From contig NC_091156.1 in NCBI RefSeq assembly GCF_040958095.1, forward strand, positions 20,814,675 to 20,878,674: a DNA stretch of 64,000 nucleotides. Direction: 5' to 3'. This DNA comes from Procambarus clarkii (lineage: Eukaryota; Arthropoda; Malacostraca; Decapoda; Cambaridae). Below are positions 9,407 to 35,394 of this stretch, in pieces; the first letter of the stretch is position 1, and each line of letters starts with the position of its first letter. The notes beneath the pieces are model-generated. The model saw only the letters and a program-made list of their open reading frames with translations. It did no database searches and had not been told where the DNA came from. The position numbers were made by a program, and so were the translations under genes.

Positions 9407-9944
9407 TAAATAAAAAAACAACGTTGAATGTAATGAAACGCCATTTTCTGGGTGAGTCCCAGAGGCACCCCGGAGCTTACTAGGCTGATATGCTAATGTC
9501 AGACTTTGGCATCAGTCATGTGTATGGAGTTCTGTGGGCCTACCGGGGACCATGAGCCAGAACCTGGCCCCATCAGAGAGGCATGGGGAGCAATGGCCTA
9601 TAGACACCCCCCGTGTGGTTGGAAGTATTCTATGTCTGCCATCTACCGGATCAGGCACCCAGAAAGGTAAGCATCCCAAAACAAACCCCTATTCTGGTGA
9701 AAATATTGCTACCAAAAAGTCGAACAAGTGGATAGAACTCCCCCTAAAAGAAACGAGCAAACGGGCATGACGTCACACATCGCCGCGCCGCTGTCTACGC
9801 AGCTCCCCCCTCCCCCGAGAGGGGAAAGGGGAAGCCCCAGACCCCCTACGCCGGCTATCTACCCATCAGTTCTGAGGCTGGATGTCAAAACACATCAAAA
9901 CTACCGACCGGAGGAAGGGAGGGATGCTGGGGGAGTCTCCGGGT

Positions 9945-10025
9945 CTCGCCCAGAAAATGGCATTTCATTACATTCAACACTGGTTTTCAATCTGGGGGGA
10001 GCCCCTTTGGCTCCCCGGAGCTAAC
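9945..10025 (-). repeat. DIRS internal complementary region (copy A)
   Basis: The first half is the reverse complement of the extended 3' end (CCCAGAAAATGGCATTTCAT onward). The second half resembles the 5' terminus read inward (CTGGGGGGAGCCCCTTTGGC). A short insertion (CAATC) separates them. Confidence 0.75.
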
Positions 10026-10184
10026 TAACCACAGAGGAAAACATAGGGACTTACCCGGGAGGCGGTTGCTGCTCACTCCTCAATTCGAAGTCGACACAAC
10101 TGGCTACAGCCGCTGACCCAAAGCAGCACAGGAACGACGAGGCCCATTGACTTTCACTAGGTAACGAGCAGCCAGGACCCCATT

Positions 10185-11040
10185 CAACCACTAAAAGCCC
10201 CGTGCCTGAATGTCAGCCCAGGACATGTTGCCAACGACGGCAGCAAGAGCAGCGAACTTTCGAATGTCATGGGCACGGGGATAGACTGCAGGCTGGCTAG
10301 CCTTAATAACTCTGTGGACGACCTGGGAGACCCACACCCATGTTCAGGGAAGAAGGGAAACTGGATCAACCCAAAGAGTGTCCCATGGACACAGAAGCTG
10401 TGGCGTGCAAATAATGGTGAAGAGCCTCAACCGGACACAAAACATAATGCACCCCCGGCCTGACCAACCAAGCATCAATAACCCAGAGACCCCTCCGGAA
10501 AGCGGCAGTTTCATTCTTCGCAAGAAAAGAAGGAGACGGCTGCAAATGAACAAAGCCATCATGAATATCGAAGGAGCAGAAACCTCAACGCCGAAGGAGA
10601 GCATGAAGCTCCCCAACCTGACCCCTAGAGGCTAATGCCAACAGAAAAAGAGCCTTGGAGAAACAATCCTGAACCGAAGGGGCCACAACAAACCGAGGAG
10701 AAGAAAGAAAAGAGAGCCCTTTGTCCAAAGACCAAGACAGCTCAGGCGGCGCATGAGCAGGCCGGAGGTAAAACAACGCATGAGACAGCTTGTAAAACGG
10801 CGCAGAAACAACATCAATACCAAACGCATGCTGAAGGGGTTCCACCAGCGCCACACGATACAAGGCGACAGTGTTAGGCATAAGGTGACGGTCCTGGAAC
10901 AACCAAGAGAGAAAGGACAATACCCGAACAGAAAGCGAAGCACAACAACGAAGACGTAAAAAGAACCAAAAGGACCGCCAGGAGAATTCATACTGCCACC
11001 GAGATGAAGCCCGCAGGTGGGACACCAACAAAGACACCAC
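10185..11040 (-). pseudogene. DIRS tyrosine recombinase (copy A)
   Basis: A decayed tyrosine recombinase. The N-terminal part reads LRASSRWQYEFSWRSF and later NTVALYRVALVEPLQ. The central block is LALASRGQVGELHAL, where the usual catalytic arginine of the ASGxRVSEL block appears as Q. Further on, in another frame, YPRAHDIRKFAALAA keeps the H-x-x-R pair. Several frameshifts break the frame. In the family this enzyme integrates a circular DNA intermediate. Confidence 0.75.
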
Positions 11041-11203
11041 CTGATCACCATATAGATGATGATAAACCTGATAGAGATGATGATGATGATTTGTTTATAA
11101 ACCAGAGTAAAAAAGACCATACACGAAGACTCGAGGTGAAGTTCGAACCAGCCACATGACACACCAGACCGATCTGTTGGAAGAGGCGGAGCCACGGGAA
11201 ATC

Positions 11204-11510
11204 CTAAAGGTTCGGACACCGTGCAAGCAGCGCCTGAAACCACAGCTGGGCCGGCCACCACGGGGCCAAGAGGACTAGTATTCCCTGGTAGGTCTCCAAG
11301 CGAGTTAGGACCTGGAGCAACAGCTGAAGCTGGGGAAAGAGGTACAGGAATCCCCACCTCGACCAGTCCTGCCGAAAGACATCGACACCGATGGTCTCGC
11401 AATCGGGCAAGGGCACCACATACAGGGGTAGGCGCCGCAAATAAGCCGACGTGAAGAGGTTCACCGCGAGTGCGAGCAACCCTCGAACTCGCACAAAGCA
11501 AGGGGGGACT
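11204..11510 (-). pseudogene. DIRS region after RNase H (copy A)
   Basis: The minus strand reads VNLFTSAYLRRLPLYVVPLP, then DWSRWGFLYLFP and LAPWWPAQLWFQALL. This is the conserved segment that follows RNase H in DIRS-like pol frames and ends with a WPxQxWF block. The RNase H catalytic part itself is missing. Confidence 0.7.
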
Positions 11511-12671
11511 CCGGGGACACATCCATCGGACCCATGCGCCCCCTAGAGGTTTCCCAGGGTCCTGAGCGCCTAATGGAAACTCACACCCAGGTAATCCCAG
11601 GCAGGGATAAGCTAACCGGCACCCAAAACTACCAAACAACTGTCTAAAGCTGAACCCCATGGACGTGTACTCTCATGGGGACCTAGCAGGGGGAGGCACC
11701 ATCAGAAGAGAACCGTGCACAGGTCAGGCACAAAAAAAAAGGGGGAAGCAAGGCAGACCCCCCTATATGGCAAAAACAAAAAGAAAAACAAAACCCCACA
11801 AGAGGACAACGTACCACAAAGAACAAAGCCAGCCACTGTAAGTGGTGAAAACAAGCTGCACAGTACCCTGCACCCCACCAGTGCAAACTGCCTCTTACCC
11901 TAAGGTAAACCAGGAAGACAAAACCCCTAAGCACCCAAAGGGCAGCCGAAAACCGAGCAGTATTACGACCTTGCAGAGGCAGACCCCGAGGAACTTTTAG
12001 AAGGTAGCCCCAAGCTCCAAGGGCAGTACTTACAGGGCACCTAGGGACGAGAACCCTAGGCGCATGCAGCCCAAGTACTGTAGAATAACTCCTGGCTCCC
12101 GCACCCCTGGAAGACAGCCACCACACTCAAAGCACAGTGTTGGAAATGCTAAAGTCAAGCACACGACCTCCACCTCTAACATCAGCCTGAGAGCTGACGG
12201 GTGGATATCCGGCATTGGGGGGGTCTGGGGCTTCCCCTTCCCCCTCCCGGAGAGGAGGGACCTGCCCAGACAGCGGCGCGGCGACATGTGACATCATGCT
12301 TATTTGCTCGTTTCTTTTAGGGGAGTTCTATCCAATTGTTCGGCTTTTGGTAGCAATATTTTCACCAAAATAGGGGTTTGTTTTGGGATGCTTATCTTTC
12401 TGGGTACCTAACTGGGTCGATGGCAGACATAGAATGCTTCCAACTACACGGGAGGGGGGTGTCTATAGGCCATTGCTCCCCATGCCTCTCTGAGGGGGCC
12501 AGGTTCTGGCTCATGGTCCCCGGTAGGCCCACAGAACTCCATACACATGACTGATGCCAAAGTCTGACATTAGCATATCAGCCTAGTAAGCTCCAGGGAG
12601 CCGAAGGGGCTCCCCCCCAGAAAATACATACATTATAAACTTATTTTAATTACATAAACGTTTGATCGTAC

Positions 12672-12916: not shown

Positions 12917-13166
12917 CTGTAAATAATAAAATAGTTTTTAAATTAAGTACAATGTAGTTCAAATGCTTACGAGTGATCGAGGGAGGCATCCTTGTTCTCT
13001 TATCCCACCATACTTAATGATACAAATACCTTGTATAATAAAAATACTTGATAGTCTTAAGGGGAACTAGTCCTACCATAACTGCAGTGTGGTGCTCCCC
13101 GAGTAACACTGACAATGAAAGCACACAACACACACAGACGTGCGCGCGCGCACACACACACACATC

Positions 13167-14569
13167 ACCTGATCTTTCAGGCATCCCTGTGTACAGGAAT
13201 CGTAGCAGACGTGTGGAAACAGGCTAACATAGTTCCAATCTACAAAAGTGGCAGCAGGGAAGACCCCCTCAATTATAGACCTGTATCATTGACAAGTGTA
13301 ATAGTGAAAGTATTGGAAAAGCTAATCAAAACTAAATGGGTAGAACACCTGGAGAGAAATGATATAATATCAGACAGACAGTATGGTTTTCGATCAGGAA
13401 GATCCTGTGTATCGAATTTACTCAGTTTCTATGATCGGGCCACAGAGATATTACAGGAAAGAGATGGCTGGGTTGACTGCATCTATCTGGACCTAAAAAA
13501 GGCTTTCGACAGAGTTCCACATAAGAGGTTGTTCTGGAAACTGGAAAATATTGGAGGGGTGACAGGTAAGCTTCTATCATGGATGAAAAATTTTCTGACT
13601 GATAGAAAAATGAGGGCAGTAATCAGAGGCAATGTATCGGAATGGAGAAATGTCACAAGTGGAGTACCACAGGGTTCAGTTCTTGCACCAGTGATGTTTA
13701 TTGTGTACATAAATGATCTACCAGTTGGTATACAGAATTATATGAACATGTTTGCTGATGATGCTAAGATAATAGGAAGGATAAGAAATTTAGATGATTG
13801 TCATGCCCTTCAAGAAGACCTGGACAAAATTAGTATATGGAGCACCACTTGGCAAATGGAATTTAATGTTAATAAATGTCATGTTATGGAATGTGGAATA
13901 GGAGAACATAGACCCCACACAACCTATATATTATGTGAGAAATCTTTAAAGAATTCTGATAAAGAAAGAGATCTAGGAGTGGTTCTAGATAGAAAACTAT
14001 CACCTGAGGACCACATAAAGAATATTGTGCAAGGAGCCTATGCAATGCTTTCTAACTTCAGAATTGCATTTAAATACATGGATGGCGATATACTAAAGAA
14101 ATTGTTCATGACTTTTGTTAGGCCAAAGCTAGAATATGCAGCTGTTGTGTGGTGCCCATATCTTAAGAAGCACATCAACAAACTGGAAAAGGTGCAAAGA
14201 CATGCTACTAAGTGGCTCCCAGAACTGAAGGGCAAGAGCTACGAGGAGAGGTTAGAAGCATTAAATATGCCAAAACTAGAAGACAGAAGAAAGAGAGGTG
14301 ATATGATCACTACGTACAAAATAGTAACAGGAATTGATAAAATCGACAGGGAAGACTTCCTGAGACCTGGAACTTCAAGAACAAGAGGTCATAGATTTAA
14401 ACTAGCTAAACACAGATGCCGAAGAAATATAAGAAAATTCACCTTCGCAAATAGAGTGGTAGACGGTTGGAACAAGTTAAGTGAGAAGGTGGTGGAGGCC
14501 AAGACCGTCAGTAGTTTCAAAGCGTTATATGACAAAGAGTGCTGGGAAGACGGGACACCACGAGCGTAG
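13167..14569 (+). pseudogene. CR1-like LINE reverse transcriptase (uninterrupted C-terminal 465 codons)
   Basis: This is the longest uninterrupted LINE frame in the window. It has YRPVSLTSVIVKVLEKLI, the catalytic-block DLKKAFDRVPHKRL, the SGVPQGSVLAPVMFIVYIND block and the FADDAKIIG catalytic box, followed by the thumb and a C-terminal RTRGHRFKL domain ending KECWEDGTPRA. No RNase H follows, consistent with CR1/jockey-type elements. Upstream codons come from the flanking microsatellite, so the apparent start at 13115 is not genuine. Endonuclease and ORF1 are absent. Confidence 0.85.
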
Positions 14570-14612
14570 CTCTCATCCTGTAACTACACTTAGGTAATTA
14601 CACTTAGGTAAT
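13167..14612 (+). mobile_element. CR1-like LINE copy 1 (5' truncated)
   Basis: A 5'-truncated CR1-like LINE on the plus strand. It begins within the RT at the same point as 17020 of copy 2, directly after a (GC)(CA)n microsatellite (13140-13162). It ends with the family 3' tail TAGCTCTCATCCTGTAACTA followed by two repeats of ACTTAGGTAATTAC. LINE copy 2 starts immediately afterwards. It lies antisense in the VPS50 intron. Confidence 0.85.
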
Positions 14613-16389: not shown

Positions 16390-18143
16390 TTGTTACTAGG
16401 CAGGGAAGTAAATGAAATGTATGCCAAATTTTTAAAAATATACGAGGAAGGCACACAAACATTCATACCAAAACAGAGAGGCAGGGCCAGAAAACAGGAT
16501 TGGTTCGACAGAAATTGTGAGAGGGCCAGAGACCAAAAGACACAAAAATGGAATCAGTATAGGAAGAGGCCAAACCCCCAAACATACCAGCGATACAAAG
16601 ATGCGAGAAACAACTATACAACAGTAAGGAGAGAGGCAGAAAGAAATTTTGAAAAAGGGATAGCGGATAAATGTAAAACAGAACCGGGCCTATTCTACAA
16701 ATTCATAAACAACAAATTGCAGGTAAAGGATAATATCCAGAGGTTGAAAATGGAAAACAGATTCACAGAAAATGAAAAGGAAATGTGTGAAACATTAAAT
16801 GAAAAGTTCCAAAGTGTGTTTGTACAAAATGAAATCTTCAGGGAACCAGACACGATAAGAATTCCAGAGAACAACATAGAGCGGATAGAGGTGTCTAGAG
16901 ATGAAGTGGAAAATATGCTAAAGGAGCTCAGTAAGAACAAAGCAGCTGGCCCAGATGGAGTTTCACCATGGGTTCTGAGAGAATGTGCATCTGAGCTCAG
17001 CATTCCACTTCACCTGATCTTTCAGGTATCCCTGTGTACTCCTGTGTACAGGAGTCGTAGCAGACATGTGGAAAAAGGCTAACATAGTTCCAATCTACAA
17101 AAGTGGCAGCAGGGAAGACCCCCTCAATTATAGACCTGTATCATTGACAAGTGTAATAGTGAAAGTATTGGAAAAAATAATAAAAAGTAAATGGGTAGAA
17201 CACCTGGAGAGAAATGATACAATAACAGACAGACAGTATGGTTTTCAATCAGGAAGATTCTGTGTATCGAATTTACTCAGTTTCTATGATCAAGCCACAG
17301 AGATTTTACAGGAAACAGATGGTTGGGTTGACCGCATCTATCTGGACCTAAAGAAGGCTTTTGGCAGAGTTCCACATAAGAGGTTGTTCTGGAAACTGGA
17401 AAATATTGGAGGGGTGACAGGTAAGCTTCTAACATGGATGAAAAATTTTCTGACTGACAGAAAAATGAGAGCAGTAATCAAAGGCAATGTATCAGACTGG
17501 AAAAATGTCACAAGTGGAGTACCACAGGGTTCAGTTCTTGCACCAGTGATGTTTATTGTTTACATAAATGATCTACCAGTTGGTATACAGAACATGAACA
17601 AGTTTGCTGATGATGCCAAGATAATAGGAAGGATAAGAAACTTAGATGATTGTCATGCCCTTCAAGAAGACCTGGACAAAATAAGTATATGAAGCACCAC
17701 CTGGCAAATGGAATTTAATGTTAATAAATGCCATGTTATGGAATGCGGAATAGGAGAACACAGACCCCTCACAACCTATAAATTATGTGAGAAGTCTTTA
17801 AAGAATTTTCATAAAGAAAGATCTAGGGGTGGTTCTAGATAGAAAACTATCACCTGAGGACCACATAAAGAACGTTGTGCGAGGAGCCTATGCCACGTTT
17901 TCTAATTTCAGGATTGCTTTTAAATACATGGATGGCGAAATACTAAAGAAATTGTTCACGACTTTTGTTAGGCCAAAGCTAGAATATGCAGCGGTTGTGT
18001 GGTGCCCATATTTTAAGAAGCACATCAACAAACTGGAAAAGGTGCAAAGACATGCTTCTAAGTGGCTCCCAGAACTGAAGGGCAAGAGCTACGAGGAGAG
18101 GTTAGAGGCATTAAATATGCCAAAACTAGAAGACAGAAGAAAA
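16390..18143 (+). pseudogene. LINE copy 2 reverse transcriptase (broken)
   Basis: The RT is broken into three frames. A duplicated block CCTGTGTACT near 17029-17050 shifts the frame relative to copy 1. A TGG to TGA change stops it at 17690. A 2-bp deletion near 17818 shifts it again. RT blocks remain readable: AAGPDGVSPWVLRE, YRPVSLTSVIVKVLEK, SGVPQGSVLAPVMFIVYIND and KFADDAKIIG. DLKKAFGRVPHKRL has G in place of the catalytic-block D seen in copy 1. Confidence 0.85.
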
Positions 18144-18173
18144 AACCAGCGTTGAATGTAATGAAACGCCATT

Positions 18174-18598
18174 TTCTGGGTGAGACCCGGAGGCTCCCCG
18201 GAGCTTTACCGGCTGATATGCTAATGTCAGACTTTGGCATCAGTCATGTGTATGGAGTTCTAGGGCCTACCGGGGACCACGAGCCAGAACCTGGCCCCCT
18301 CAGAGAGGCAAGGGGAGCAATGGCCTATAGAAACCCCCGTGTGGTTGGAAGCATTCTATGCCTGCCATCGACCGGGTCAAGCATCCAGAAAGGTAAGCAT
18401 TCCAAAACAAACCCCTATTCTGGTGAAAATTGCTACCTAAGCCGAACTAGTGAATAGAACTCTTCAACAGAAAACAAGGAAACTAGTATGACATCATACG
18501 TCACTGCGCCGCTGTCTGCGCAGCTCCCCCCTCCCCGGGAGGGGGAAGGGGGAGCCCCAGACCTCCCACGCCGGCTATCCACCCATCAGTTCTGAGGC
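18174..18598 (-). repeat. DIRS copy B 3' inverted terminal repeat
   Basis: Matches the reverse complement of 23622-24045 with only scattered differences. The outermost 20 bp differ (GTGAGACCCGGAGGC here versus GGGGAGCCCCGTCGGC at the other end), as expected if each end is templated separately by the ICR. Confidence 0.9.
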
Positions 18599-18644
18599 TG
18601 GATGTCAAAACACGCGAAAAACGCCGACCGGAGGGAGGGAGGGT

Positions 18645-18745
18645 TGCCGGGGAGCCTCCGGGTCTCACCCAGAAAATGGCGTTTCATTACATTCAACGCT
18701 GGTTTTCTGGGGGGAGCCCCGTCGGCTGCCCGGAGCTAACTACCC
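18645..18745 (-). repeat. DIRS internal complementary region (copy B)
   Basis: Positions about 18652-18703 are an exact-looking reverse complement of the element's extended 3' end, including GGAGCCTCCGGGTCTCACCC. Positions about 18704-18740 match the 5' terminus read inward (TTTTCTGGGGGGAGCCCCGT). The two halves abut, as in DIRS1, where the ICR templates completion of the ends and circle formation. Confidence 0.9.
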
Positions 18746-18899
18746 ACAGAGGAAGGTCAAAGGGACAAAACCGGGAGGCGGACACCACGCACCCCCCGAG
18801 GAGGCGAGACAACCGGCAGCAAACGCCAACCCAAGGCGCCACAGCCCCGAAAATCCCGGGAACAACACGAGAACCACGAGCAGCAAGGCCCCTGCACGA

Positions 18900-19725
18900 A
18901 CACCAAAAATCCATGCCCGACTGACTGCAAGGCCACGTCGCCCAGACGGCAGCGAGAGCAGCGAAGCCACGAACGCCACAGGCATGAGGGAAGAACACAG
19001 GCAGCTTAGCCGCAAGAACACAGCTGACCACCCGGGACACCATCACCCGCGAACCGGGAAGAACAGAACCGGATCAACGCAAAACGCGCTCCGGACCCAA
19101 ACGCCGTGGCACGCAAACAACAGCGGAGGGCCGCCACTGAACACAAAAACGACACACCCCCAGCCCGACCAACGAAGCACCAACAAACCCTGGACCCCTC
19201 CAGAATGCAGCAGCCCCACCCCGCGCCAGAAAAGATGGAGACTGCTGCCATCAAACAACCAAAACGCTAAAACCGAAGGAGCAAGAAAACTCAGCGAACC
19301 GACCCCCAGAGGCAAAGGCCCAAAGGAAAGAGCCGACGAAAAAACACACCGGAACCGAAGGGGCACTACCAACCGAGGAGAAGACAGAGCACGCTGACCA
19401 GAGACCAGGATGGTGCAAGCGGCGCACGAACAGGCCGGAGGTGAAATGACGCACAAGACAGCTGACTAACGGTGCAGAAGCAACACCAAGACCGAAAGCA
19501 AGCTGAAGCGGCTCCGCCTGCGCCGCACGAAAAGAGGCGACAGTATGTGGCAAGACGACTGCCCCCAACCCCCACTAGAAAACCAAGCCGAGAGTAAACC
19601 AAGCTAACAAGAGGAACCACCTAAGAAGGGACAGGAAAAGGAAGGACCGCCAAAATACCCCATACTGCCGCCAAGAGAAGCACGCAGGTGGGACACCTAC
19701 CACGAAGCCACCCGACCACCAACCG
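18900..19725 (-). pseudogene. DIRS tyrosine recombinase (copy B)
   Basis: A broken recombinase. Minus-strand pieces include SWRQYGVFWRSFLF, AQAEPLQLAFGLGV, FASGGRFAEF (catalytic arginine kept) and FFPHACGVRGFAALAA. In the last, the histidine of the family H-D-V-R block appears as C while the arginine remains. Frameshifts separate the pieces. Confidence 0.65.
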
Positions 19726-20099
19726 GAGGCAAGACCACGAGGTAGAACATAAGCAGCCCCGACAAGTCCCTCCCGAGCCCAGGAAAAAGGCGGAGCCGCG
19801 AGAAGATCTCGGGCGCGACCACCGAGACCCAGGCGGCACAAGGAGATGGAACGTCTGCCGAACAGAAAAACTCCCCGAAGCATGCAAGCCCGCCAGGAGT
19901 TTAGAAACGACGGGTCCGACGCGAGACATCGCAAGAACCCCCCCCAAAAAAAAAAAAACAACAACAACCGGCAGGGCAAGCTAGGAAAACCAAAGAAGGC
20001 GGAAGGGTCGCCGCCAGAACAGGACCCGAACCAAGGGGCACGAACAACTGCAACAGACCGAGACAAGCACATCACAGGACACAGGCTGACCAACGCCTA

Positions 20100-21555
20100 A
20101 GAACACACGCAGAACATCCCTGCTGCAGAGGAGGCAGGAAGAAAGAGCAGAAGCACAAAAAAAAAAAAAAAACAGGAGAACAACCAAGGGTGGACAATCA
20201 GGCAGGGACAAAAACCCCACGCAATCTCCAGGCACAAAACGGCAGCAAAGTGCCACTCCACAACCGGACACAGGAACAAGGACACGCCACCGTGAAACAC
20301 GGTACCAATGCACACGTGCAGCAGCAGCAACAGGCACCACTGCAACATGCAACATGTAAATAGCAACTCCCCTCTGCAAAGGCAGAGAACGGAGCAGGCA
20401 GACCCCAGACAGGGCCAACGGAGACACGACAAAACCCTGCAGGTCCAGAAACCTGCACCAGGCGACCGACGGCGGAGAAACCCCGCTCGATACCTGCTGG
20501 ATGAGGTACTGGGAGCTCTTTTACACCTCAAGCCCGGCCCAAGGTCAGGCCAGACCGGCCAGAGGATGGCCCACCAGGCAGCTGCTAGGAGCAGGCCACC
20601 GGCCCACATACCCCCACAACCAGGACGGGCCGGAACTGCCATACGAAAACAGGCCAGTGCGCCCTGGAAGCCCACGGACGAACCAGCAAGAAGGCTTATG
20701 CTCGCAAGTAGGTTGTGTAACAAGCACAGACCACTGATGGTAATACAGTGTTCCCCAAAAGTGCCAATAGCACCACTGCACTCCACTGGTACTATCCCGC
20801 AAGTTCTACCAGATAGGCGAGACCCAAGAGCCAGAGCTCAAATCCTGCAAGCACAGCCAGGAGCCTCACCAGGTGAGTACAGAACCAACCCTACAACCCC
20901 CACACCTCACAACATTAAAAAAGGAGGGTCCCCTGAATGACTCCAGCATGGGTTGGACATGCACATGAGGGGGACAGGGAGGGTTGAAAAAGGGACAGTC
21001 ACTGGTGTGCGAACGGTCTCAGTCGTACAAAAATATACCTAAATAAAGACAGGTATATAAACACCGCCGCATCCAGCGCCCGGCCAAAAGACGCCAGACC
21101 GCAGAAACTCACCTGGCGAATGGTGGCTCGAACTTGACACAACTCAACCGTGCCCAGAAGAACTTGGGAGCACCGCCAGGTGAAGACGCCAGAGCTGGAC
21201 CCTGCCGGACCCGCAGGAGAATAGGGAGAGGCGAAGGAGGCGGTCCACACCCATGACACAGGGAAAACCGCGGTGTCCTCCCCACAACTGGGAACCAGGA
21301 TACCCCCGGCGCGAAGGGGCACATACCGCAGCCAGGGAGAAGAACGAGAGGCGAAGCACTGTAGCAAAAAGGGCGCAAAACCCCAGCACTGAAACACCGC
21401 CCAGACCAAAACAAACTCCACGGCGCACGCGCATAACACGCTGGCCGAACCGCACACCCTCCCTGCGGGAAGGCGCCAGCCAGGACTATTGCACGAGAAA
21501 AGGAGCCAAAAGAGGAAGCAGGAACAATAAAACCGGCCAAAGAAGCAAAGAGCCC
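20100..21555. other. GC-rich DIRS copy B interior, no gene recognised
   Basis: Open frames exist on both strands but have low-complexity, non-protein-like composition, and I recognise no domain. A SINE tail fragment (AGAGCCAGAGCTCAAATCC ... CACCAGGTGAGTAC) lies at about 20815-20880. An A-run lies at 20157-20172. The region may be the decayed gag-like ORF of the element. Confidence 0.45.
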
Positions 21556-21580
21556 AAAAAAAAAAAAAAAAAGGAACCCA

Positions 21581-23620: not shown

Positions 23621-23621
23621 G

Positions 23622-24355: not shown

Positions 24356-24515
24356 CAAAGTGGCCAGAAAGAATGAAGCATTAGGAGAAATGGTTAAAGA
24401 AGCATTAATCAGACAAGTAGACATCAGACAAGAAATTAGAAAGGAACCGACATCCATATCTGAACTGGTACAAAACACAGTTGATAGAAGCTCCTGATAA
24501 TTTTGCTTGCAAAGA
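24356..24515 (+). mobile_element. CR1-like LINE copy 3, first piece (ORF1)
   Basis: Encodes EIRKEPTSISELVQNTVDRS, aligning with the ORF1 piece ELVTNSKLVQNTADRTKS of copy 2. It begins inside ORF1 (5' truncated) and is interrupted at 24515 by DIRS copy C. Confidence 0.75.
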
Positions 24516-25029
24516 AAACCAGCGTTGAATGTAATGAAACGCCATTTTCTGGGTGAGCCCCGGAGGCTCCCTGGAGCTTATCGGGCTAATGTGTGTTATG
24601 TTAGACCGGGACATTAGCTAAGGAGTTCAGACCTACCAGGGACCAGCGCCAGAACCTGGCCCCTTCAGAGAGGTTTCAGGGAGCAATGGCCCTGGAAAAC
24701 CCCATATGGTTGGGGGTTTTCCTTATCTGCCATCGACCGGGGTTAGGCACCCAGAAAGGTAGGCGTAACAAAACAAACCCCACATGGTAAGACACTACAA
24801 CAAAAACCGAACAGAGAGGTAGAAAACTCCCTACAATCCCAAGGAAACAAGCAAACAAGCAAACATCACACTTTATTGCCGCGCCGATCGTCCGCGCAGC
24901 CCTCCCCACCCCGGGAGGGGGAGGGGGGAGCCCCGGACCTACCGCGCCGGCTGCCAAGCTCCAGTTCGGAAGCTAAGCCTCAACCAACGCGAAAAAACCG
25001 CCGACCGGTGGGAGGGAGGGTTTCCAGGG

Positions 25030-25115
25030 AGCCTCCGGGGCTCACCCAGAAAATGGCGTTTCATTACATTCAACGCTGGTTTTCTGTGGGGAGCCCCTAC
25101 GGCTCCCTGGAGCTT
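25030..25115 (-). repeat. DIRS internal complementary region (copy C)
   Basis: The first half reverse-complements this copy's own 3' end (GGAGCCTCCGGGGCTCACCC). The second half matches this copy's own 5' end (TTTTCTGTGGGGAGCCCCTA). Both halves carry copy-C-specific bases that differ from copy B. Confidence 0.9.
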
Positions 25116-25299
25116 CATACCCAAAGAGAAGGAAAAGAAAGGGCTAACCCGGGAGGCGGCCGCCACAAACTCTGCAACGCAAAGCCAAGACAACCGGTCG
25201 CAAACCTGCGACCCAAGGCAACAAGAACGCCCAAGAACAGACATACACATGGATGGGCGGCCAAAAACCTGTGCGACCCACAATTCCCTGCACCCGAAA

Positions 25300-25970
25300 T
25301 GAGCCCGAGACGTCACCAACACAGCAGCAATTGCTGTAAACGTCTGAACAGCACGGGCGCAAAGACAGACCGCAGTAAGAAGGAAAACACTGCGGACGAC
25401 CCGGGAGACCCGAGCCCTGAAAACAGGGAACGAAGGAACCGGATCAACCCCAGCGCATCCCCAGGCACGGTACGCCGGCAACAGCAAAAAGCACAACTGG
25501 ACAACACAGGACGCACCCCCCGGCCAAACCAAACAAGTACCAATACCCCAAGAACCCCTCCGGAAAGCAGCCGTCTCGACCGTCGCCAGGACAGAGAAAG
25601 GCTGCACACCAATAAAGCTACCACCAGTACCAAAGAGGAGGAAACTGAAACCGAAGGGGCTACCACAAACTGAGGGGAAGAGAAGAAGGCACCCTGAACA
25701 AGGACCAGGATGGCTCAGGCGACTCATGAGCAGGCCGGAGGGGAAACAAAACGCGAGAAGACGTAATAAACGTCATACAGTCTCCAAGACGAAGCTCGCA
25801 GGTGGGACACCGGCAACAAAGCCACCTGAACACCATAGAGATGGCGATACCTGCGTCAAAATACCAGACGCGAAGAGCCAAAGAGAAGGCCGAACCAGTC
25901 ACGGACAGGACCGATTCGGCCTGCCGAAAGAGGCGAAGCCTCAGGAAAAACGCCCCGGGTACGGACACCT
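25300..25970 (-). pseudogene. DIRS tyrosine recombinase (copy C, heavily decayed)
   Basis: By position between ICR and RNase H this is the recombinase. Fragments such as LRPAHESPEPSWSL (about 25700) and ARAVQTFTAIAAVL (about 25340, the degraded H-x-x-R block) are recognisable. No frame is intact. Confidence 0.55.
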
Positions 25971-25971
25971 A

Positions 25972-26590
25972 TCAAGCAGCGTCTGAAAAGAAGGCCGGGC
26001 CGGCCACAGTGGAACCATAAGGACTGTTCTCGTGGGAATGGGCTGCAACTGAGCCAGAACCCGAAGCAACAGCTGGACCGGGAGAAGAGGTACAGGTACC
26101 CCCCACCTCGACCAGGCCTGCCGAAAGCCTCCACCGTGAAGTCCTCGCAGGTGGGAAGGGCGCCACAAAACGGGCGACGCCTAGACCACGCCGACCCGAA
26201 GACGTCCATGGCCAGGAGTCCAGAAGCCCAACAGAGCCAACAAAACGAATCGGCGACGACTGGCCAACCCACGAAGAGGAATGAACCGAGACAGCTGTCC
26301 ACCAGGACGCAGGACACACCCCGGACACGAGCCACACGGTTAACCAAACCCCCTGTGGTTCCGGCAAGAACCACCAGAGAACAGTCGAAACAGAGCTGAA
26401 CGGTAGAGTACCTAGTGACCCAAACCCTCCGAAGCGCAAACCAGACAGCCATGAACACCTGAACCGGGCTGTGAGCCCGACGGACAGACAGACTCCATCA
26501 ACCTCGGCCGACCTGGTGAGCACAGGTCACAAAGCCCCAGCCGAGAGACGACCCGTCCGTGAACACATCGAGCGAAGGCTCGGGGAGCCG
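25972..26590 (-). pseudogene. DIRS RNase H and downstream segment (copy C)
   Basis: Starts with SLDVFTDGSSLGWGFVT, the RNase H entry with its catalytic D. Frame-shifted remnants of the rest follow (for example WPARPSFQTLLDRCP near 25990, the WPxQxWF-type block). It is a pseudogene. Confidence 0.7.
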
Positions 26591-27770
26591 CCAAGGCACG
26601 GAACCCCGAAAACCCCAAAGAGGAAGCTGGTGACGCAGCACCAACACCAGATCCCCAGAGGAACCCAAGGAATGCAAGAGGCGGAAGTGGAGTCTCCGTA
26701 GGAACCAACCGACGCCGGAGCCAAACCCGACTCCGCGGGTAGACAAGCACGCCGAAGTGCAAACTCCCGCACAACCGCCCAAGCAACCGCTGAGCAACCC
26801 GGGACCCCCTCCTGAACAGCCAAAGGCGGGACCACAGCCACAGTAACACTTCTGGAGGGAAGATAATGAGGGGCCCAAGAGCCTGAAACAAGGCCCAGGT
26901 CCGAACCCGGGACGGAACAGAAGGTAAAACCTCCAGATCACCAGGAAACCAAACCCAGCGATCTGGAAAGAACCATCCCCTGGCGAGCAGACAAGCGGAC
27001 TGACTGGGAGCCCACTCCAGCCAGTCGTCGAGGTAGGCCAGACACCGAATCTCAGACGCAGACAGGGCACTAAGATCCGGTAAAGATGCAAAGAGTATAC
27101 AAAGTGCCCTTCACAAAATAGGGAATGCAATAAAAACAGCAAACCTGAAGCCCCACCACCAAAGCATTGTATGACAATCATATGAAGACATATTATGACA
27201 TATGACAATCATTATACGACAATATGACAATTATAATCAAAGCATGATATGACAGTGCTGGGAAGACGGGACACCACGAGAGTAGCTCTCATCCTGTAAC
27301 TACACTTAGGTAAGTACACATAGGTAATTACCAACCGTGCTAGCCCCAGAAAAACTGGAGAGGAATGTGCCAAGAAGTGACCTGGAGGTCCAGGTCCACC
27401 ATCCATGCACCCGGCCCTAACAGAATCCGAACAGGAGACAACAGTCCTCCGAGCAGGGCAGAGGATCCAGGGCGCAGACGGAAGTAGTCCAGAAGAACTG
27501 CAGACTGGAAAAGCTCATGACTGCAAAGAGCAGACGGGAAGCCCAGAAGGATGGGGCGGAACGACCACGCCCCACGCACCCACGAAGAGGAAATGAAGCG
27601 CAGGGAAGAAGCCCACCCCGCCAGCTCTGAACCCCCCCCAAGGGGGAGAAGCCGTCCTCCGACGCCAGCAGAGGCCGGAAGACAACCCAAAGCGCCCACC
27701 AACAGCGGGACCAAGCGAGAGGCAACAGAGCAAGCTGCTCCCCCAGCGCCCAGTCAACAGAGAAGGGAAC
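26590..27770 (-). pseudogene. DIRS reverse transcriptase (copy C, decayed)
   Basis: The minus strand carries WMVDLDLQVTSWHIPLQF near 27360, a decayed version of the DIRS block SLDxxDAYxHVPI. Downstream are FRPGFGPGPCFRLLGP-type thumb remnants, shared in another frame with copy D (PGSDLAGSYLGILDRFL). A LINE tail (27238-27331) sits inside it. No intact catalytic DD box was found. Confidence 0.6.
27238..27331 (+). mobile_element. CR1-like LINE 3' tail fragment
   Basis: Repeats the last 95 bp of the LINE family (GTGCTGGGAAGACGGGACAC, then TAGCTCTCATCCTGTAACTA and ACTTAGGTAAGTACACATAG). It is inserted in DIRS copy C. Short ATGACAATCAT-type repeats lie just upstream (27155-27235). Confidence 0.8.
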
Positions 27771-27794
27771 AGAACCCCTTCAGAAAGAAAAAGT

Positions 27795-27997
27795 ACACAA
27801 CCGAAGTCATGAGGAGAGACTACGGGAATGAAACCACACTTCGCTGGAAGAGGAAGTGAGGGGAGACCTGATCACCACATACAAGATACCCAAGGGAATT
27901 GACAGGGTTGAGAAGGACAGGATATGTAACACAAGGGGCACACGCACTAGGGGACACAGGTGGAAACTGAGTACCCAAAAGAGCCACAGATAGAATT

Positions 27998-27998
<1 letters not shown>
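27795..27998 (+). mobile_element. LINE C-terminal fragment
   Basis: Encodes MRRDYGNETTLRWKRK, a frameshift, then ITTYKIPKGIDRVEKDR and TRGTRTRGHRWKL, the C-terminal domain of a CR1-like LINE distinct from copies 1-3. It ends at a T-run. Confidence 0.7.

Positions 27999-27999
<1 letters not shown>

Positions 28000-28043
<44 letters not shown>
28000..28043. repeat. T44 homopolymer
   Basis: Forty-four consecutive T between a LINE fragment and SINE-like sequence. It may be the poly(A) tail of a minus-strand retroposed element; its length is likely to be unstable in assemblies. Confidence 0.95.
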
Positions 28044-28044
<1 letters not shown>

Positions 28045-28159
28045 AGTGTCAGAATGGGAACGGGAAAGCACCAAGAAGTAATGTGGCGACTCCTCACACA
28101 AGTAACGAGGCTGACCCCCATACAATGTCACATGTAGACATGACAGAGCCCAACAGGCA

Positions 28160-28243
28160 CAGGAACCGATACACCTGTTGACGGACGGTTGAGAGGCAGG
28201 ACCAAGGAGCCAGAGCTCAACCCCCACAAGCACAACTAGGTGA
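28160..28243 (+). mobile_element. SINE tail fragment (second type)
   Basis: Contains GTTGAGAGGCAGGACCAAGG and CAGAGCTCAACCCCCACAAG, then CACAACTAGGTGAG. The same block occurs at 5785-5830 and, more diverged, at 20815-20880. The head is not resolved. Confidence 0.5.
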
Positions 28244-28299
28244 GGACATATATTGTAAAAGCACAAGCCGCCGACTAGTGGCAAAGAGCACTACGCCGG

Positions 28300-30290
28300 C
28301 CAGGCAAAGAAGGCACAAAACTGCATCAAAAGGCCCACCTCGACAGCAAAACCACAAAGTCCCAGCACAACCACAACATGTGCCAAGACCCAAAAAGCTC
28401 AGCCTGCAAGCCAGGAAGACCCCGGAACCCCAAAAGGCCGAACCGGGTCACACGAGGAAACAAAGTCCCCTGAACCCACAAAAGGGGGCCCAAGAGGAAG
28501 AAACCTCCAGAACGAAACCAAGGAACCCAAAGGAACCCAGAATCGAACCAGGGGGAGCCCAAACCACCACATATGCCGGCGGAAAACACCACTAAAAGGC
28601 AAAGCACAGACCCCAGCAGAACGCCCTGGGAAAACGGTCCCAACAGACCGAAAACCGAGGGGCAAGGTGTGGGAGCAAGCATACCAGCCAGGGGCACTGA
28701 GCCTAAACCCAGAGGCTCAGACCCCAAATCAACACCCAAACGTTCCCAGAGGAACAGGCAACGGCAAGAAAACACCAGAAAAACAAAGAAACGACAACAG
28801 GAGAACAAAAACCCTGCAAATTTTTTGAAAACTCACCAGAGACGCTCGCTCGCACACCCAGACGCATGTAAACAAACCGCAACGCCGCCCTGGTGGCCAC
28901 GCCGGGAAACCGGCAGACGAAAATGGCCGCCAGCAGGGGCTGTGACTGACGCTTAATACACAAAAACACGCCAGCAAATGTGGGAAGCTAGCAGACTGGA
29001 AGGGCGAAAAACGACGCCCAACAGCAGAAAAACCCCTGAAGGGGCAAAACCGCCCCAGAACTGCTAGTAGGCAACCCCCACAGCCCCGGGAACCAACAAC
29101 AGAGGCCCCGGGGCAGAGCCGTCCTCCAAGCCCTCCGCCCTGAAAGAAAAGCAAGAGCCCACGGGAAAGGCAACAAGAAAGGGCCGCTGGTAAGACCCAG
29201 AAGCCTTGGCAGGAGGCACAGGCTCAAACCTCCGTCCCCAACCCGAACGGGGCATCCCCCGAAAACCGCCCGAGTCTCTGCCGCAACTGAACCCCGCCCC
29301 GACCCAGAAACACGCAGACGGTCCGGAGCCGGGAACATGGAGAGAAAGGGGCGAGCAGCACCTAACCAAACGGGGCGGCCACGGGGCATTCGAGTGGGAA
29401 ACCAACCTAGCATGTTGCAGCAACCTAACCTAGCTTGCAACACGGATGCCGCCTGTACTCTGAACAGTAATAACATCAGGAGAGTACTGGAGAACAAGCA
29501 GAGAATCACTCGCAAGACTCCGGGTCAAGGTGTCAGTGACCCAACAGGCAGCATGACGGAGGTAAAAATGACGACTGTCACCCGGAGACAAGGGAACAGC
29601 AACCAACGATCCCGTACAAGACGGGTTGGAACCCGGAAGACACATGCAATGGTCCCCCGAGCCCAGACAGGGGTTTCCAGGGCCCGTAGGGTAACAACTA
29701 CGGGAAGCCCGGGCAAGGTGTTGCTAACCGGTTAAGAAACCCAAACATAACAAGAGGGTAGATTATAGCACTGAAAACCCCCGAGACGTGTACAAGCACG
29801 GGGGCCTAGCAGAGGGCCGCCAAACACTACCAGTGGAACTATAACCACCTTAGGCAGACCCCCACCAGGCAAGAAAAAGAAAAACAAAAGAAAAACCCCG
29901 CAAAAGTACACCGTCTCCAGAGGCAACAGAAACCGGCCGCCGCTGAGGTGGCAGGCTGCGCAACACCTTGACGCCCTAACCAGCACAATACCAATCCCTA
30001 CCCAGGGCCAAACAAGGGCCCCAAGCCCCAGCTGGCCCCAAGGGCGAGGCAAATGCCGAGCAGCAAGAACCTCTACGGGAATGGTTCCCGAACGCCCCAG
30101 GGAAGATAACCCTGTAACGCAAGGGCAGTACTCACAGGGCGCTTAGGGAAGTCAGCCACTAAGCACATGCAGCCCCGGCACTGATGAAGTACTCCTGGCC
30201 ACCGCACACCACAACACACGGCAGTGAACGCCACACAAGGCAAACACCGCCTAGGAAACTGAGGCCAGAGAAGCGTCAATCCCGGTTGAC
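28300..30290 (-). mobile_element. DIRS copy C 5' region, no domain recognised
   Basis: This GC-rich stretch should hold the first, gag-like ORF of the element. I see no clear domain in the minus-strand frames. The part from 29460 onward is the leader shared with copy E. Confidence 0.5.
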
Positions 30291-30717
30291 ATTAGCGAAC
30301 GAACTGGAGCTTGGCAGCCGGCGCGGTAGGTCCGGGGCTCCCCCCTCCCGGGGTGGGGAGGGCTGCGCGGACGATCGGCGCGGCAGTAAAGTGTGATGTT
30401 TGCTTGTTTGCTTGTTTCCTTGGGATTGTAGGGAGTTTTCTACCTCTCTGTTCGGTTTTTGTTGTAGTGTCTTACCATGTGGGGTTTGTTTTGTTACGCC
30501 TACCTTTCTGGGTGCCTAACCCCGGTCGATGGCAGATAAGGAAAACCCCCAACCATATGGGGTTTTCCAGGGCCATTGCTCCCTGAAACCTCTCTGAAGG
30601 GGCCAGGTTCTGGCGCTGGTCCCTGGTAGGTCTGAACTCCTTAGCTAATGTCCCGGTCTAACATAACACACATTAGCCCGATAAGCTCCAGGGAGCCGTA
30701 GGGGCTCCCCACAGAAA

Positions 30718-30835
30718 AGGAAATAACAGCAGAAGTAAACATTATAGATACAATTGTTGGGTTAGTAAAAGGCCTTATAGCAAAAGACAATGACTGTGAT
30801 TACAGAAGAATTGGAAGGTACAAATATTTTAAAAA
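30718..30835 (+). mobile_element. CR1-like LINE copy 3, second piece
   Basis: Continues ORF1 of LINE copy 3 after DIRS copy C: EITAEVNIIDTIVGLVKGLI ... YRRIGRYKY aligns with EISSRVDRAAEEM ... FIRIGKYEK of copy 2. It is cut again after 118 bp by DIRS copy D. The rest of this LINE was not found beyond 35380. Confidence 0.75.
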
Positions 30836-31324
30836 CCAGCATCGAATGTAATGAAACGCCATCAAACGCCCCGGAACTATCCAGGCCGATATTGCTAATA
30901 TTAGACCTTAGACCTTGGCCTCAGTCAGTGTGAATGGAGTTCTTAGGCCTACCAGGGATCACGAGCCAGAACCTGGCCCCCTCAGAGAGGCATGGGGAGC
31001 AATGGCCTATAGAAGCCCCCATGTGGTTGGAAACATTCTATGTCTACCATCGACCGGGTTAGGCACCCAGAAAGACAAGCATCCCAAAACAAACCACTAT
31101 TCTGGTTAAGAAATTGCTACCGAGAGCCAAAGTAGTGGACAAAACTTCCCAAACAAAAGCGAGCAAACAAGCCTGATGTCACCACATCGCAGTCTGCACA
31201 ATTTCCCCCAACCCGGGAGGGGGTAGGGGGAGCCTCAGACCCCTCGTGCCGGCTACCCAAGACCCTAGTTCTGAGGCTGGATATCAAAAACACACGAAAA
31301 ACTGCTGACCGGAGGGAGGAAGGG

Positions 31325-31410
31325 TTGTCGTGGAGCCTCCGGGTCTCACCCAGAAAATGGCGTTTCATTACATTCAACACTGGTTTTCTGGGGGAAGCCC
31401 CTTCAGCTTC
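31325..31410 (-). repeat. DIRS internal complementary region (copy D)
   Basis: GGAGCCTCCGGGTCTCACCC and the GTTTCATTACATTCAACACT block, then TTTTCTGGGGGAAGCCCC read inward. The 3' terminus of this copy no longer matches its ICR fully because of the local deletion. Confidence 0.85.
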
Positions 31411-31461
31411 CCGGAGCTATTGCCAAAAGACGAAAACAAGAGGGACTTACCCGGGAGGAAG

Positions 31462-32434
31462 TCATTGCTCGCTCCTCAACGTGAAGCCAAGACAACTACC
31501 TGCAACTGCCAATCCAAATCGACACAGGTCCGACGAGGCCCCAGGAACATTAACTAAGTAACATGCAGCCAGGACCCTGCCCAACCGCCAAAAACCCCAC
31601 ATCTGAATGTCAGCCCAAGACATGTTGCCGAAGACGGCAGTAAGAGCCGCCAACTTACAAACGTAGTGGGCATGGGGATAGACCACAGGCTGGCTGGACC
31701 GAATAACCGTGAGGACGACCTGAGAGATCTGCACTCTGGAACAGGGACGAAGGAAAACCGAATCAATCCAAAGCGCGTCTCCGGACATGGAAGTCATGGG
31801 GTGTAAATAATGGCAGAGAACCGCAACCGGACAACATGTGATGCACCCCTGGCCTGACCACGCATGAATCAAAAACCCAAGGACCCCTCCGGAAAGCAGT
31901 CGTCTCATTCTTCACGAGAAAAAGAGGAGACGGCTGCAAGCGAATAAACCTATCACGAGGACCAAGAGAGCAGAAACCCCTGCGCCGGAAGCGAGCATGA
32001 AGCTCCCCCGACCTGACCCCGAGAAGCCAATGCCAAGAAGAAAAGAGCCTTGGAAAAGCAGTCCTGAACCAAAGGGGCTACAACAAACCGAGGAGAAGAG
32101 AGAAAAGAAAGCACCCAATCCAAGGACAGAAACAGCTCAAGCGGAGCATGAGCAGGCCGTTGGTGAAACAATGCACGAAATAGCTTGCGAAATGGTACAG
32201 AAGTAACATCAGTACTGAAAGCAAGAAGTAGCGGCTCTGCCAACACCGCACAATACGAGGTGACAGTATTTGGCATAAGATGATGGTCCTGAAACAACCA
32301 CGAGAGAAAGGACAAGACAACCTTAACTGAGAGCAAAGAACACCTACGAAGAGAAAGAAACGAAAGGACCACCAGGAAACTTCATATTGCCGCCGAGACG
32401 AAGCCCGCAGGTAGGACACCATCAAGGACGCCAC
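31462..32434 (-). pseudogene. DIRS tyrosine recombinase (copy D)
   Basis: Frames 32078-32434, 31953-32372 and 31462-31908 together cover the recombinase. Visible motifs are LRASSRRQYEVSWWSF, NTVTSYCAVLAEPLL, FLALASRGQVGG, and VYPHAHYVCKLAALTAVFGN. The family catalytic arginine of the ASGxR block reads Q, and the arginine of the H-x-x-R block reads C. At least two frameshifts are present. Confidence 0.75.
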
Positions 32435-32711
32435 CTGAGCACCATACAGATGGTGCTAGACTCGAGTCAAAAAGACCAAACACGAAGGCTCGAGAAGAAG
32501 ATCGAACCAGCCACGTGACAAATTGGACCGATCTGCTGAAAGAGGCGGAGCTACGGGAAAACCTCCGGGTTCGGAAACTGACCAAGCAGCACCTGAAACC
32601 AAGGCTGGGCCGGCCACCATGGGACCAAGAAGACTACTCTTCCCTGGTAAGTCTCCAAGCGAGCCAGGACCAACAGCTGAACTGGGGGGAAGAAGTACAG
32701 GAACCCTAACC

Positions 32712-33725
32712 TCAATCAGTCTTGCCGAAAAACATCGACCCCGACGGCGTCACTGTCGAGGAAGGGCGCCACATACGCCCTTCCCATACATTACATAGGT
32801 GACGCCTCGACCCTGCTGACATGAAGAAGTCCACATCCAGGCGTCCGAAAGTCTGGCAGAGCCAACTGAAGGAGTCAGCGTCGACCAACCATTCCATGGA
32901 CATGGGAATGAACCGAGACAGGCCATTCGCCAGAACGTTGGACACCCAACACATGTGAACCGCCAGGAGAGCCAAACCATGAGAACTCAGCAGACAAATC
33001 ACCCGAAGCAACCAGCCCCAAAGAGCCAAGGACCGCAGAGAACCCCCACGGTTCAGACAATAAACCACCAGGGAGCAGTCTGAATGGAACCAGATTGTCG
33101 ATCCGCGGGGAACCCGAATCCTCCAAAGAGAATACCACACCACCGCAAACTTCTGAACTGTGCTACGGGCTCGACAGAAGGACGGACCCCACTGCTCCTG
33201 GCCGACCTGTTGAGCACTGGTCACAAAGCCCCAGCCCAGAGACAACGTATCTGTGAACACATCGAGTGAGGGCTCGGATAGGCCCCAAGGTATTGAACCC
33301 TGAAAAACCTGAAGAGGAAGCCGGTGATGCAGCAACCGACGCAAGGCCCCCGGCGGCTGAACCAAGCAATCGCGAGAGAGGCAAAAGGGACGTCCCCAAA
33401 GAAACCAGAACAGCCGACGAAGCCAAACCCGACCTGGCAGGTAGACCATCACGGCAAAGTTCAGGCTCCCATACAAAACCTTGAGCAACCGCCGAGTGAC
33501 CCGGGAGCCCCCAGAAACTGGCAAAGGCAGGACCGCAGCCGAAGGAAAAACTCTGGAGGGAGAGACAAGGAAGCGGTCCAAGATTCCCAAATAAGACCCA
33601 GCCAAATCCGAACCTGGGAGGGGACCAAATGGGACTTCCTCCAGTTCACCAAGAACTCGAACCCGGCGAACTTGGAAAGAACCAAGAACTCCCTCTATTT
33701 CTGCAATCTCTCCTGCTCTGAAGGG
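32712..33725 (-). pseudogene. DIRS RT end, RNase H and downstream segment (copy D)
   Basis: The longest DIRS pol frame in the window. It begins with FGPLPGSDLAGSYLGILDRF (RT end). RNase H follows with SLDVFTDTLSLGWGFVT, FHSDCSLVVYCLNRGG and a VLANGLSRF motif, then GRLDVDFFMSAGSRRHL. Catalytic acidic positions in the TD and SD motifs are visible. The open frame is fused upstream to LINE codons (to 33908). The RT catalytic box lay in the deleted part. Confidence 0.8.
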
Positions 33726-34436
33726 GAAAGTGAGTACTGAGCAGTACTCAAGACGGGACAGCACCAGTGATTTGAAGAGTACAACCATTGTGATAGGATC
33801 CCTGGATTTGGAAGTTCTTGTAATCCATCCTATCACTTTTCCGGCTGTCGCAATATTTTCTTGGTTACGCTCCCTAAATGTTAGGTCGTCAGACATCATT
33901 ATTCCCAAAATCCTTTACACGTTGCTTTCCTACTATGGGAAAATTTGATTGCGTTTTGTACCCTGCATTATGTTTAAGGTTCTCATTTTTACTGTATCCG
34001 AGTACCTGGAATTTATCACTGTTAAACATAATGTTATTTTCTGCTGCCCAGTCAAAAACTTGATTAATATTTGTTTGTAGTTTTTCAATGTCTTCAGCAG
34101 AGGTAATTTTCATGCTGATTTTTGTGTCATCTGTAAAGGATGATTCAAAGCTGTGCCTTGTATTTGAGTCTATATCTGATATGAGAATAAGGAAAAGCAA
34201 TGGTGCAAGGACTGTACCCCGAGGTACAGAGCTTTTAACTGTGCTTGGACTATTTCATATGGCTGACTGTTACTCTTTGTGTTCTGTTCGACTAAAAACT
34301 GTGTATCCAACATACTACTTTACCAGTTTTTCCCATTGTCCTCATTTTGTGTGCTATCGCTCCATGGTCACATTCATCAAATGCCTTTGCGAAATCTGTG
34401 TATACCACATCTGCGTTCTACTTTCCTTCTAATGCC
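33725..34436 (-). mobile_element. LINE RT fragment inside DIRS copy D
   Basis: The minus strand reads FDKCDHGAIAHK-like sequence at the right, then VPRGTVLAPLLFLILISDID, a decayed catalytic region SSFTDDTKISMKI, the WAAENNIMFNSDKFQVLGY block and GWITRTSKSRDPITMVVLFK. It is a CR1/jockey-type RT fragment from a family other than LINE copies 1-3. Both ends are truncated inside the RT, so this is not a simple target-primed insertion. Confidence 0.75.
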
Positions 34437-35394
34437 TCAGTACCACCAGGACAGAGAATTGTATGCTATTTACACCAGGGGGGGGGCAAAAACCAAAGGC
34501 AGAATCCCCCTACCAGGCAGGAAAACAAAAAGAAAAAGAAAAAGAAAACCCCGCAAGAGGACAGCGTACCCAGGTGGATCAGAGCTGGCTGCTATGATAG
34601 GTGATAACTAGCTGCGCAGTAATTGCGCAAAGTACTGTTGCTAACTGCCTCTTACTCTAAGGTGAACAAAGATGCCAGAACACTGCAGCACACAAAGGGC
34701 GGCCGAAAGCCGAGCAGCAAACAACCAAGCAGAGGCAGAAACCAAGAACTTGTGGAAGGAGGCCCCAAGCCCCAAGAGCAGTACTTACTGGGCACCTAGG
34801 GAAGGTAACCCTAGACGCATGCAGCCCAAGTACTGAAGAATTACTCTGGCTCATGCATCCCTAAGAAGACAGCCACCACACCACACAGACACAGAGCTGA
34901 GAACCAATTCATGAGCCAGAGCACACGACTTTTGCCTAGTGCATCAGCCTCAGAACTGGGGGTTTTGGGTAGCCGGCGCGAGTTCTTGGGCTCCCCCTTC
35001 CTTTTCCTGGCTAGGGGGAAGCTGCGCAGATGGCGGTGCGGCGACGTGGTGACATGCTCATTTGCTCGTATTTGTTTGTGGAGTTCTGTCCACTAGTTTG
35101 ACTCTCGGTAGCAATTTCTTAACCTGAATAGGGGTTTGTTTTGGGATCCTTACCTTTCTGGGTGTCTGACCCAGTTGATGGCAGACAGAGTGCTTCCAAT
35201 CACACGGGGGTTTCTATAGTCCATTGCTTCTCGTGCCTCTCTGCGGGGGCCAGGTTCTGGCTCGTGGTCCCCGGTAGGCCTAAGCCATTCACACTGACTA
35301 ATGCCAAAGTCTAATATTAGCAATATCAGCCTAGATAGCTCCAGGGAGCCCAAGGGGCTCCCCTGGAGCTGGAGCTGGGGGGAGCCCAGAAAAA

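Follow-up and report, generated by a model that had tools for sequence, protein, structure and literature searches.

The locus and the four elements

A cluster of four retroelements of the DIRS1-like superfamily was studied in a 64,000-nucleotide stretch of the genome of the decapod Procambarus clarkii (NC_091156.1, positions 20,814,675 to 20,878,674 of the forward strand), which is called the window below. The cluster probably lies inside a host gene for syndetin, and two of the four copies appear to represent young families that multiplied after the loss of their coding capacity. An earlier reading of the window, made from its letters alone (the sequence-only reading), had described four copies, A to D, with inverted terminal repeats (ITRs), a 3' end about 27 bp longer than the 5' end and an internal complementary region (ICR) just inside the 3' end. 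The four copies are real, and the window holds further DIRS relics that this reading had not counted. All four are on the minus strand, and their 3' ends therefore lie at low coordinates. In the following list, RT is reverse transcriptase, LINE is a long interspersed nuclear element, and L028 is a relative with open coding frames found elsewhere in the same genome.

9415..12622, minus strand: copy A, an old relic and a relative of the coding L028-type family, with the RT region missing and the recombinase broken (inner ITR, 31/389 substitutions)
9926..10029, minus strand: ICR of copy A, decayed
18142..24047, minus strand: copy B, a member of a young high-copy family without a pol match, with a 20-bp minisatellite inside, inserted in a LINE
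18647..18750, minus strand: ICR of copy B
24513..30720, minus strand: copy C, a member of a second young high-copy family, with gag and pol frameshifted and a captured antisense LINE tail
25024..25127, minus strand: ICR of copy C
30832..35396, minus strand: copy D, an old relic broken by the presence of a foreign RT fragment (inner ITR, 60/389 substitutions)
31327..31430, minus strand: ICR of copy D

Inverted arms were found in every copy. In B they occupy 18178-18600 and 23619-24041 (423 nt, 98% identity), so that the inverted relation between 18174-18598 and 23622-24045, on which the sequence-only reading had staked itself, is indeed present. The arms of C lie at 24552-24921 and 30341-30710 (370 nt, 99%) and those of A at 9450-9612 and 12454-12616 (163 nt, 95%), with a further 111-nt block at 90%; in D the identity is 80% over 420 aligned positions. 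In all four copies the ICR lies 557-573 nt inwards from the 3' end and reads 3' end, T-run, 5' end, its halves being complementary to both ends and meeting at a short junction. Measured on relatives, the 3' terminus exceeds the 5' terminus by 28 alignment columns and the terminal T-run, in good agreement with the earlier estimate, and this right extension matches the ICR only, as in the DIRS1-like superfamily. The boundaries proposed earlier had to be corrected into A-runs, which the limits of A to D enter at both ends; the 5' end of D reaches 35389-35396, 10-17 bp further out than had been thought, and the A-run at 35390-35396 is common to D and the adjoining sequence. The outer ends of D are altered. 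Self-comparison revealed a single direct repeat within any copy, the minisatellite of B. The idea of a single consensus of A to D was set aside, because the four are not one family and such a consensus would mix families.

Every one of the four is defective. In A, pol is reduced to its end, the last 118 residues being kept at 75%, and there is no RT-motif region; partial pol matches were obtained for the frameshifted C and for D. A foreign RT fragment (RVT_1 at 33892-34254) in D looks LINE-like by eye. In a comparison with L028-type pol no match was found in B, nor in the 3' halves of three B relatives. The minisatellite of B (21491-22035) consists of 19 units in this copy and of 8-13 in five relatives, and the antisense LINE 3' tail of C (about 27237-27331) is carried by all six C-family copies seen (L051-L055 and C itself). 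The long open frames of B were considered as genes and rejected: a frame as long as the longest one observed arises in 7/200 dinucleotide shuffles for B, in 24/200 for C and in 0/200 for L028, the sense strand of B contains 10.5% A, and a Pfam search of six long B frames gave no match.

Class assignment and coding relatives

Pfam, applied to ten single window frames, gave no DIRS RT and no other DIRS domain above the cut-off, and domains were therefore looked for in the open relative L028. Relatives of 6.4 kb occur in the genome, and the gag, pol and recombinase frames of L028 are 615, 753 and 945 codons long from stop to stop; pol (3264-5525) overlaps the recombinase (3683-6520), as in about half of known DIRS1-like elements. 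Among 17 other fetched relatives the recombinase half is in one stop-free frame in 16, and pol is in one stop-free frame over at least 731 residues in nine. The pol of L028 contains an RT of Ty3 type (RVT_1, 2.5e-17; best PDB match 4ol8, a Ty3-family RT, 1.4e-8). Its RNase H match (PF17917, E 0.052) is below the cut-off. NCBIfam returned no match for L028, and neither Pfam nor NCBIfam gave a profile match for a methyltransferase domain after RNase H in its pol, the last residues of which presumably resemble the DIRS methyltransferase domain. For the recombinase, weak integrase matches only were obtained (phrog_1, 1.1e-4; PF13495, 9.6e-4, below the cut-off). Of the domains expected by the sequence-only reading, the RT was recovered in the relative, the recombinase came out faintly and the window frames themselves gave none above the Pfam cut-off; the assignment to the DIRS1-like class stands on structure, namely the ITRs, the right extension, and an ICR that is the complement of both ends, joined at a T/A-run.

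In anatomy and in the absence of target duplication on insertion the copies agree with published DIRS1-like elements, and the class as such is a known one. The elements XtDIRS3, AcDIRS2, DIRS1-2 and DpuDIRS3 share with the present ones a divergent outer and a conserved inner ITR, a right extension (24-50 nt in most of theirs), left and right ICR parts that overlap at a circular junction of 3 bp (TTT/AAA in some), the absence of target duplication and an RT near Ty3 (Piednoel et al. 2011; PMC3266345). The inner ITR of about 411-418 positions is longer here than the 31-304 bp given for 28 elements in Table 3 of that paper, and elements which look non-coding, such as B and C, are not described in the parts of it available to us. 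According to the portion consulted of a review of Dictyostelium DIRS-1 (PMC5633606), that element has the same terminal plan and ICR, a proposed circular intermediate and a tendency to accumulate at existing copies; the host is another one, the junction is a T-run here, and the inner ITR is longer here than in the DIRS1-2 entry of PMC3266345. The Alvi families of decapods (PMC2685390) belong to the same superfamily and also show many families per host; the part of that source at hand concerns polymerase chain reaction fragments of pol, and termini of decapod elements, which are described here, do not appear in it. The Xenopus families (PMC9210276) have TTT ends, ITRs and ICRs as here, with ITRs of about 120 bp; 36 of the 75 DIRS families of X. 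tropicalis are degenerate in repeats or open reading frames (ORFs), and the passages available treat degeneration, not the amplification of non-coding families.

Abundance, age and families

A 43-nt extension/ICR module was found at 19,181 places (9,632 + 9,549) with at most 3 mismatches in the 4.03-Gb genome, and a reversed-pattern control gave 0 places, which excludes chance. At least 24 neighbouring module pairs of opposite orientation, 516-526 bases apart, were present among the matches listed. Since this spacing and orientation are those expected of an ICR and a 3' end, several thousand elements are likely to exist in the genome. A search with the recombinase of A produced 22,523 first-look candidates, and all 150 of those scored did match.

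Substitutions between the inner ITRs amount to 8% in A and 15% in D and to about 1% in B (5/395) and C (4/395). Judged from these sequences, A and D are old relics close to the abundant coding family, and B and C young copies. A 751-bp segment of B occurs at 99-100% identity in at least 40 places, B included (3182 first-look candidates), and a 751-bp segment of C likewise in at least 40 places, C included (2130 candidates); the scored copies of both are spread over many contigs. Other B-family copies that were read are 96-99% identical to B, and other C-family copies 97.6-98.6% identical to C. L028, B and C have the same 25-nt extension core. The 5' flanks of six B-family loci gave no plus-strand match in any of the 15 pairs.

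Apparent loss of coding capacity in B and C

Frameshifts were counted against L028 in 4-6 copies per region, the window copy included. In the gag region of B, 14 of 16 are common to all six copies, and in its recombinase region 9 of 12 are common to all four; for C the figures are 7 of 8 in gag and 6 of 7 in pol, each common to all six copies. As most frameshifts are shared by all examined copies, coding was lost before the spread in the copies seen. A and D are about as far from L028 as B and C and are the fairer yardstick for the indel load. Gaps against L028 number 0 per 358 aligned bases in the pol of A and 2 per 1223 in that of D; in the recombinase the counts are 4 per 988 (A) and 6 per 995 (D). 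B has 30 per 894 in gag and 25 per 970 in the recombinase, and C has 6-18 per block of 273-720. Amino-acid identity to L028 beyond that given by random placement of the same substitutions was expressed as z. It is 3.8 (D) and 2.4 (A) for pol and 4.4 (D) and 6.3 (A) for the recombinase, and low for the gag of B (1.4), the gag of C (1.2) and the recombinase of C (0.7).

B and C are probably non-autonomous families that would be moved in trans. The L028-type family may be the natural supplier of their enzymes, to judge from the identical extension core and the T-run pattern of B; the shared extension and ICR and the T-run targets of B are suggestive signs of such trans mobilization. No non-autonomous or defective DIRS1-like family was reported in the portions of the open literature covered, which included PMC8498967, PMC9210276 and PMC12477816, subscription papers and Repbase being outside the search, and the novelty of B and C is to that extent provisional. 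TOC1 of Chlamydomonas, an element of the DIRS order, is not known to contain an RT and differs from B and C in its PAT-type split direct repeats.

Terminal repeats and ends

Left and right ITRs were compared in 18 relatives, a difference being regarded as fixed by a 70% rule. Seven columns show fixed differences, three of them through a length difference of one base. All seven belong to the outer 18 columns, in the part covered by the ICR; the 418 columns further in contain none. In six inner columns variants occur in both ITRs of the same copy, in 21 cells altogether, and none of 10,000 permutations gave as many (mean 7.5, maximum 16). The sole informative column in four B-family copies is also concerted. 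Six of the 18 relatives have 0 inner-ITR substitutions over 404-411 sites, and, as A and D have diverged, the likeness of the two ITRs appears to arise at copying.

By local alignment scores, the 3' end fits its own ICR best in L028 (57), B (60) and C (62). The 5' end does so in L028 (29), C (32) and A (28), and that of B scores 29 with its own ICR and 31 with the ICR of L028. At the sequence level, the young families fit the published model, according to which the outer ends would be templated by the ICR and the remainder by the opposite ITR.

Insertion sites

B interrupts a LINE, and a paralogue in the window, 93-94% identical, shows the empty site.

13161..14603, plus strand: 3' part of a LINE, the paralogue showing the empty target of B
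17006..18142, plus strand: LINE sequence flanking B at lower coordinates, which continues at 24047-24354
24047..24354, plus strand: LINE sequence flanking B at higher coordinates

The A-runs beside B, of 6 and 3 bases, equal together the 4-base junction, as in the ICR, and a 5-base target, which is AAAGA in the paralogue. Hence no target length was gained or lost at B, and insertion without target duplication is seen there directly through the paralogous empty site. By eye, the flanks of C share a reading frame and look like LINE ORF1 (tblastn covers only 24357-24491).

The sample for target sites comprised 18 of 20 fetched relatives, L025 (no 3' end in the stretch) and L032 (tandem) being left out. 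The inferred target is a T-run of at least 5 in 16 of the 18, by a bookkeeping that presumes insertion without target duplication, and the 3' side carries at least 6 T in 16 of the 18; T-runs of at least 5 make up 1.8% of the sampled flank bases. The pattern of B, 3 and 6, is the commonest among the relatives (5/18). By eye, three of the 18 coding-type copies (L026, L031 and L034) apparently sit in one repeat, at two neighbouring T-runs.

Proposed mechanism and alternatives

In our opinion, the whole of the data is with good probability best explained by DIRS1-like elements that pile up at T/A-runs and rebuild their ends, B and C belonging to non-autonomous families that lost coding before amplification. 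Insertions would accumulate at T/A-runs, partly in LINE copies, inside one host gene. The elements would copy through RNA, and the ends missing from the transcript would be rebuilt, the outermost part from the ICR and the inner part from the opposite ITR. Joined 3'-TTT-5' ends, possibly in a circle, would then insert at a T-run by conservative recombination without target duplication. A and D would be dead relatives of a coding family still recent in the genome, and B and C, after losing coding, would have spread with enzymes from that family, with which they share the extension and the ICR. The end-restoration model itself dates from 1985 and, in the part of the 2017 review at our disposal (PMC5633606), was rated as experimentally not fully proven.

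A number of observations weigh against this explanation. The assignment of the recombinase is weak: no sequence match to it was found in the PDB, and a single-sequence fold model of the recombinase half of L028 had a mean predicted local distance difference test value of 41, too poor for a fold search. The columns of the concert test were chosen for holding variants in both ITRs, two linked columns, in one set of eight copies, account for 16 of the 21 concerted cells, and some single-sided variants are common to 2-3 copies (columns 254 and 389 and some indels). Among the five ICRs compared, the 3' end of A has its lowest score (39) with its own, and the ends of D fit no ICR well (8-10 and 23-27); both copies are decayed. 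The close coding relatives show 0-2 frameshifts in 15-17 copies, but they are 98-99% identical to L028, so that few indels are expected in them. Some identity is kept in the recombinase of B (z 3.3) and the pol of C (z 4.1), which may be read as shared coding ancestry. Besides the window copies, the copies read were five 5' halves and three 3' halves of B and five portions of C (about the first 3.75 kb), and coding relatives of B or C may exist elsewhere. As to the circle, a 2020 paper, known to us by its title, reportedly deals with linear single-stranded cDNA intermediates of DIRS.

Several other explanations have to be compared with the above. If B and C had been coding at insertion and had decayed since, their coding regions would be, as they are, degenerate relatives of the L028 family; this is very improbable in view of the frameshifts common to every examined copy of each family, the 96-99% identity of the copies and the difference of about 1% between the ITRs of B and C. 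Multiplication of B and C as segmental duplications or satellites, and not by retrotransposition, accords with their high identity and copy number, but we give it hardly any credence: the scored copies lie on many contigs, B interrupts its LINE without a change of target length, and, for the B family only, six 5' flanks are unmatched in 15 pairs and the T-run ends are like those of the coding family. 

Conversion between inverted repeats is possible, and the 21 concerted cells alone do not separate such chromosomal gene conversion from copying during replication. Nevertheless, conversion seems an unlikely cause of the ITR likeness, because the ITRs of A and D have diverged by 8 and 15% and a third of the relatives (6/18) show the 0 substitutions anticipated for fresh copies. 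Membership in the Ngaro or PAT type has a negligible chance, since the repeats are inverted and no split direct repeats emerged from self-comparison, in which the B minisatellite is the sole direct repeat within a copy.

Neighbouring sequences

Two further features adjoin or follow the cluster.

35390..37216, minus strand: older DIRS element G2, with a probable 3' terminus abutting the 5' end of D, an ICR at 36634-36695 and recombinase pieces to 37216
41740..43212, minus strand: host gene exon with a Vps54_N domain (8.5e-86), probably syndetin

The four Syndetin_C matches of the genome lie past the low end of the window (C7:20790910-20809735, minus strand). As this exon and these matches bracket the cluster, the syndetin gene probably contains it, in sense orientation, and the intron location given by the sequence-only reading is a probable one. 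The genome also gave nine crustacean-neurohormone matches, five of them on C37, in keeping with a decapod.

An insertion of D in LINE ORF1 on both sides was considered and dropped, as the sequence beyond its high-coordinate end is similar to the 3' terminus of an older DIRS copy, with a score of 39 where the highest among 1000 shuffles was 27. The 5' end of D and this apparent 3' end (35380-35480, 36620-36700) form a head-to-tail junction at the shared A-run. At one of the 20 fetched loci, L032 (reverse complement, about 820-1010), a head-to-tail pair of coding type was observed, with a 3' end, TTTT and a true 5' ITR. Further DIRS relics, on both strands, are situated at 1-1149, 3804-6303, 37421-38224, 38901-40032 (plus), 47041-47189 and 51746-51813. 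The low-coordinate flank of A (9322-9416) contains a 96-bp imperfect palindrome, perhaps a small inverted-repeat transposon.

Concluding remarks

The genome of P. clarkii offers thousands of termini, diverged families and copies with identical ITRs, so that the templating of ends could be read from the inheritance of variants. It seems rather likely, on the sequences compared, that two independent families of about 6 kb parasitize a coding DIRS family, keeping only the ITRs, the extension, the ICR and the T-run junction and reaching large numbers in trans. If this is true, the RT and recombinase would act on the RNA and DNA of other elements in this group, and the terminal module alone would suffice for recognition.

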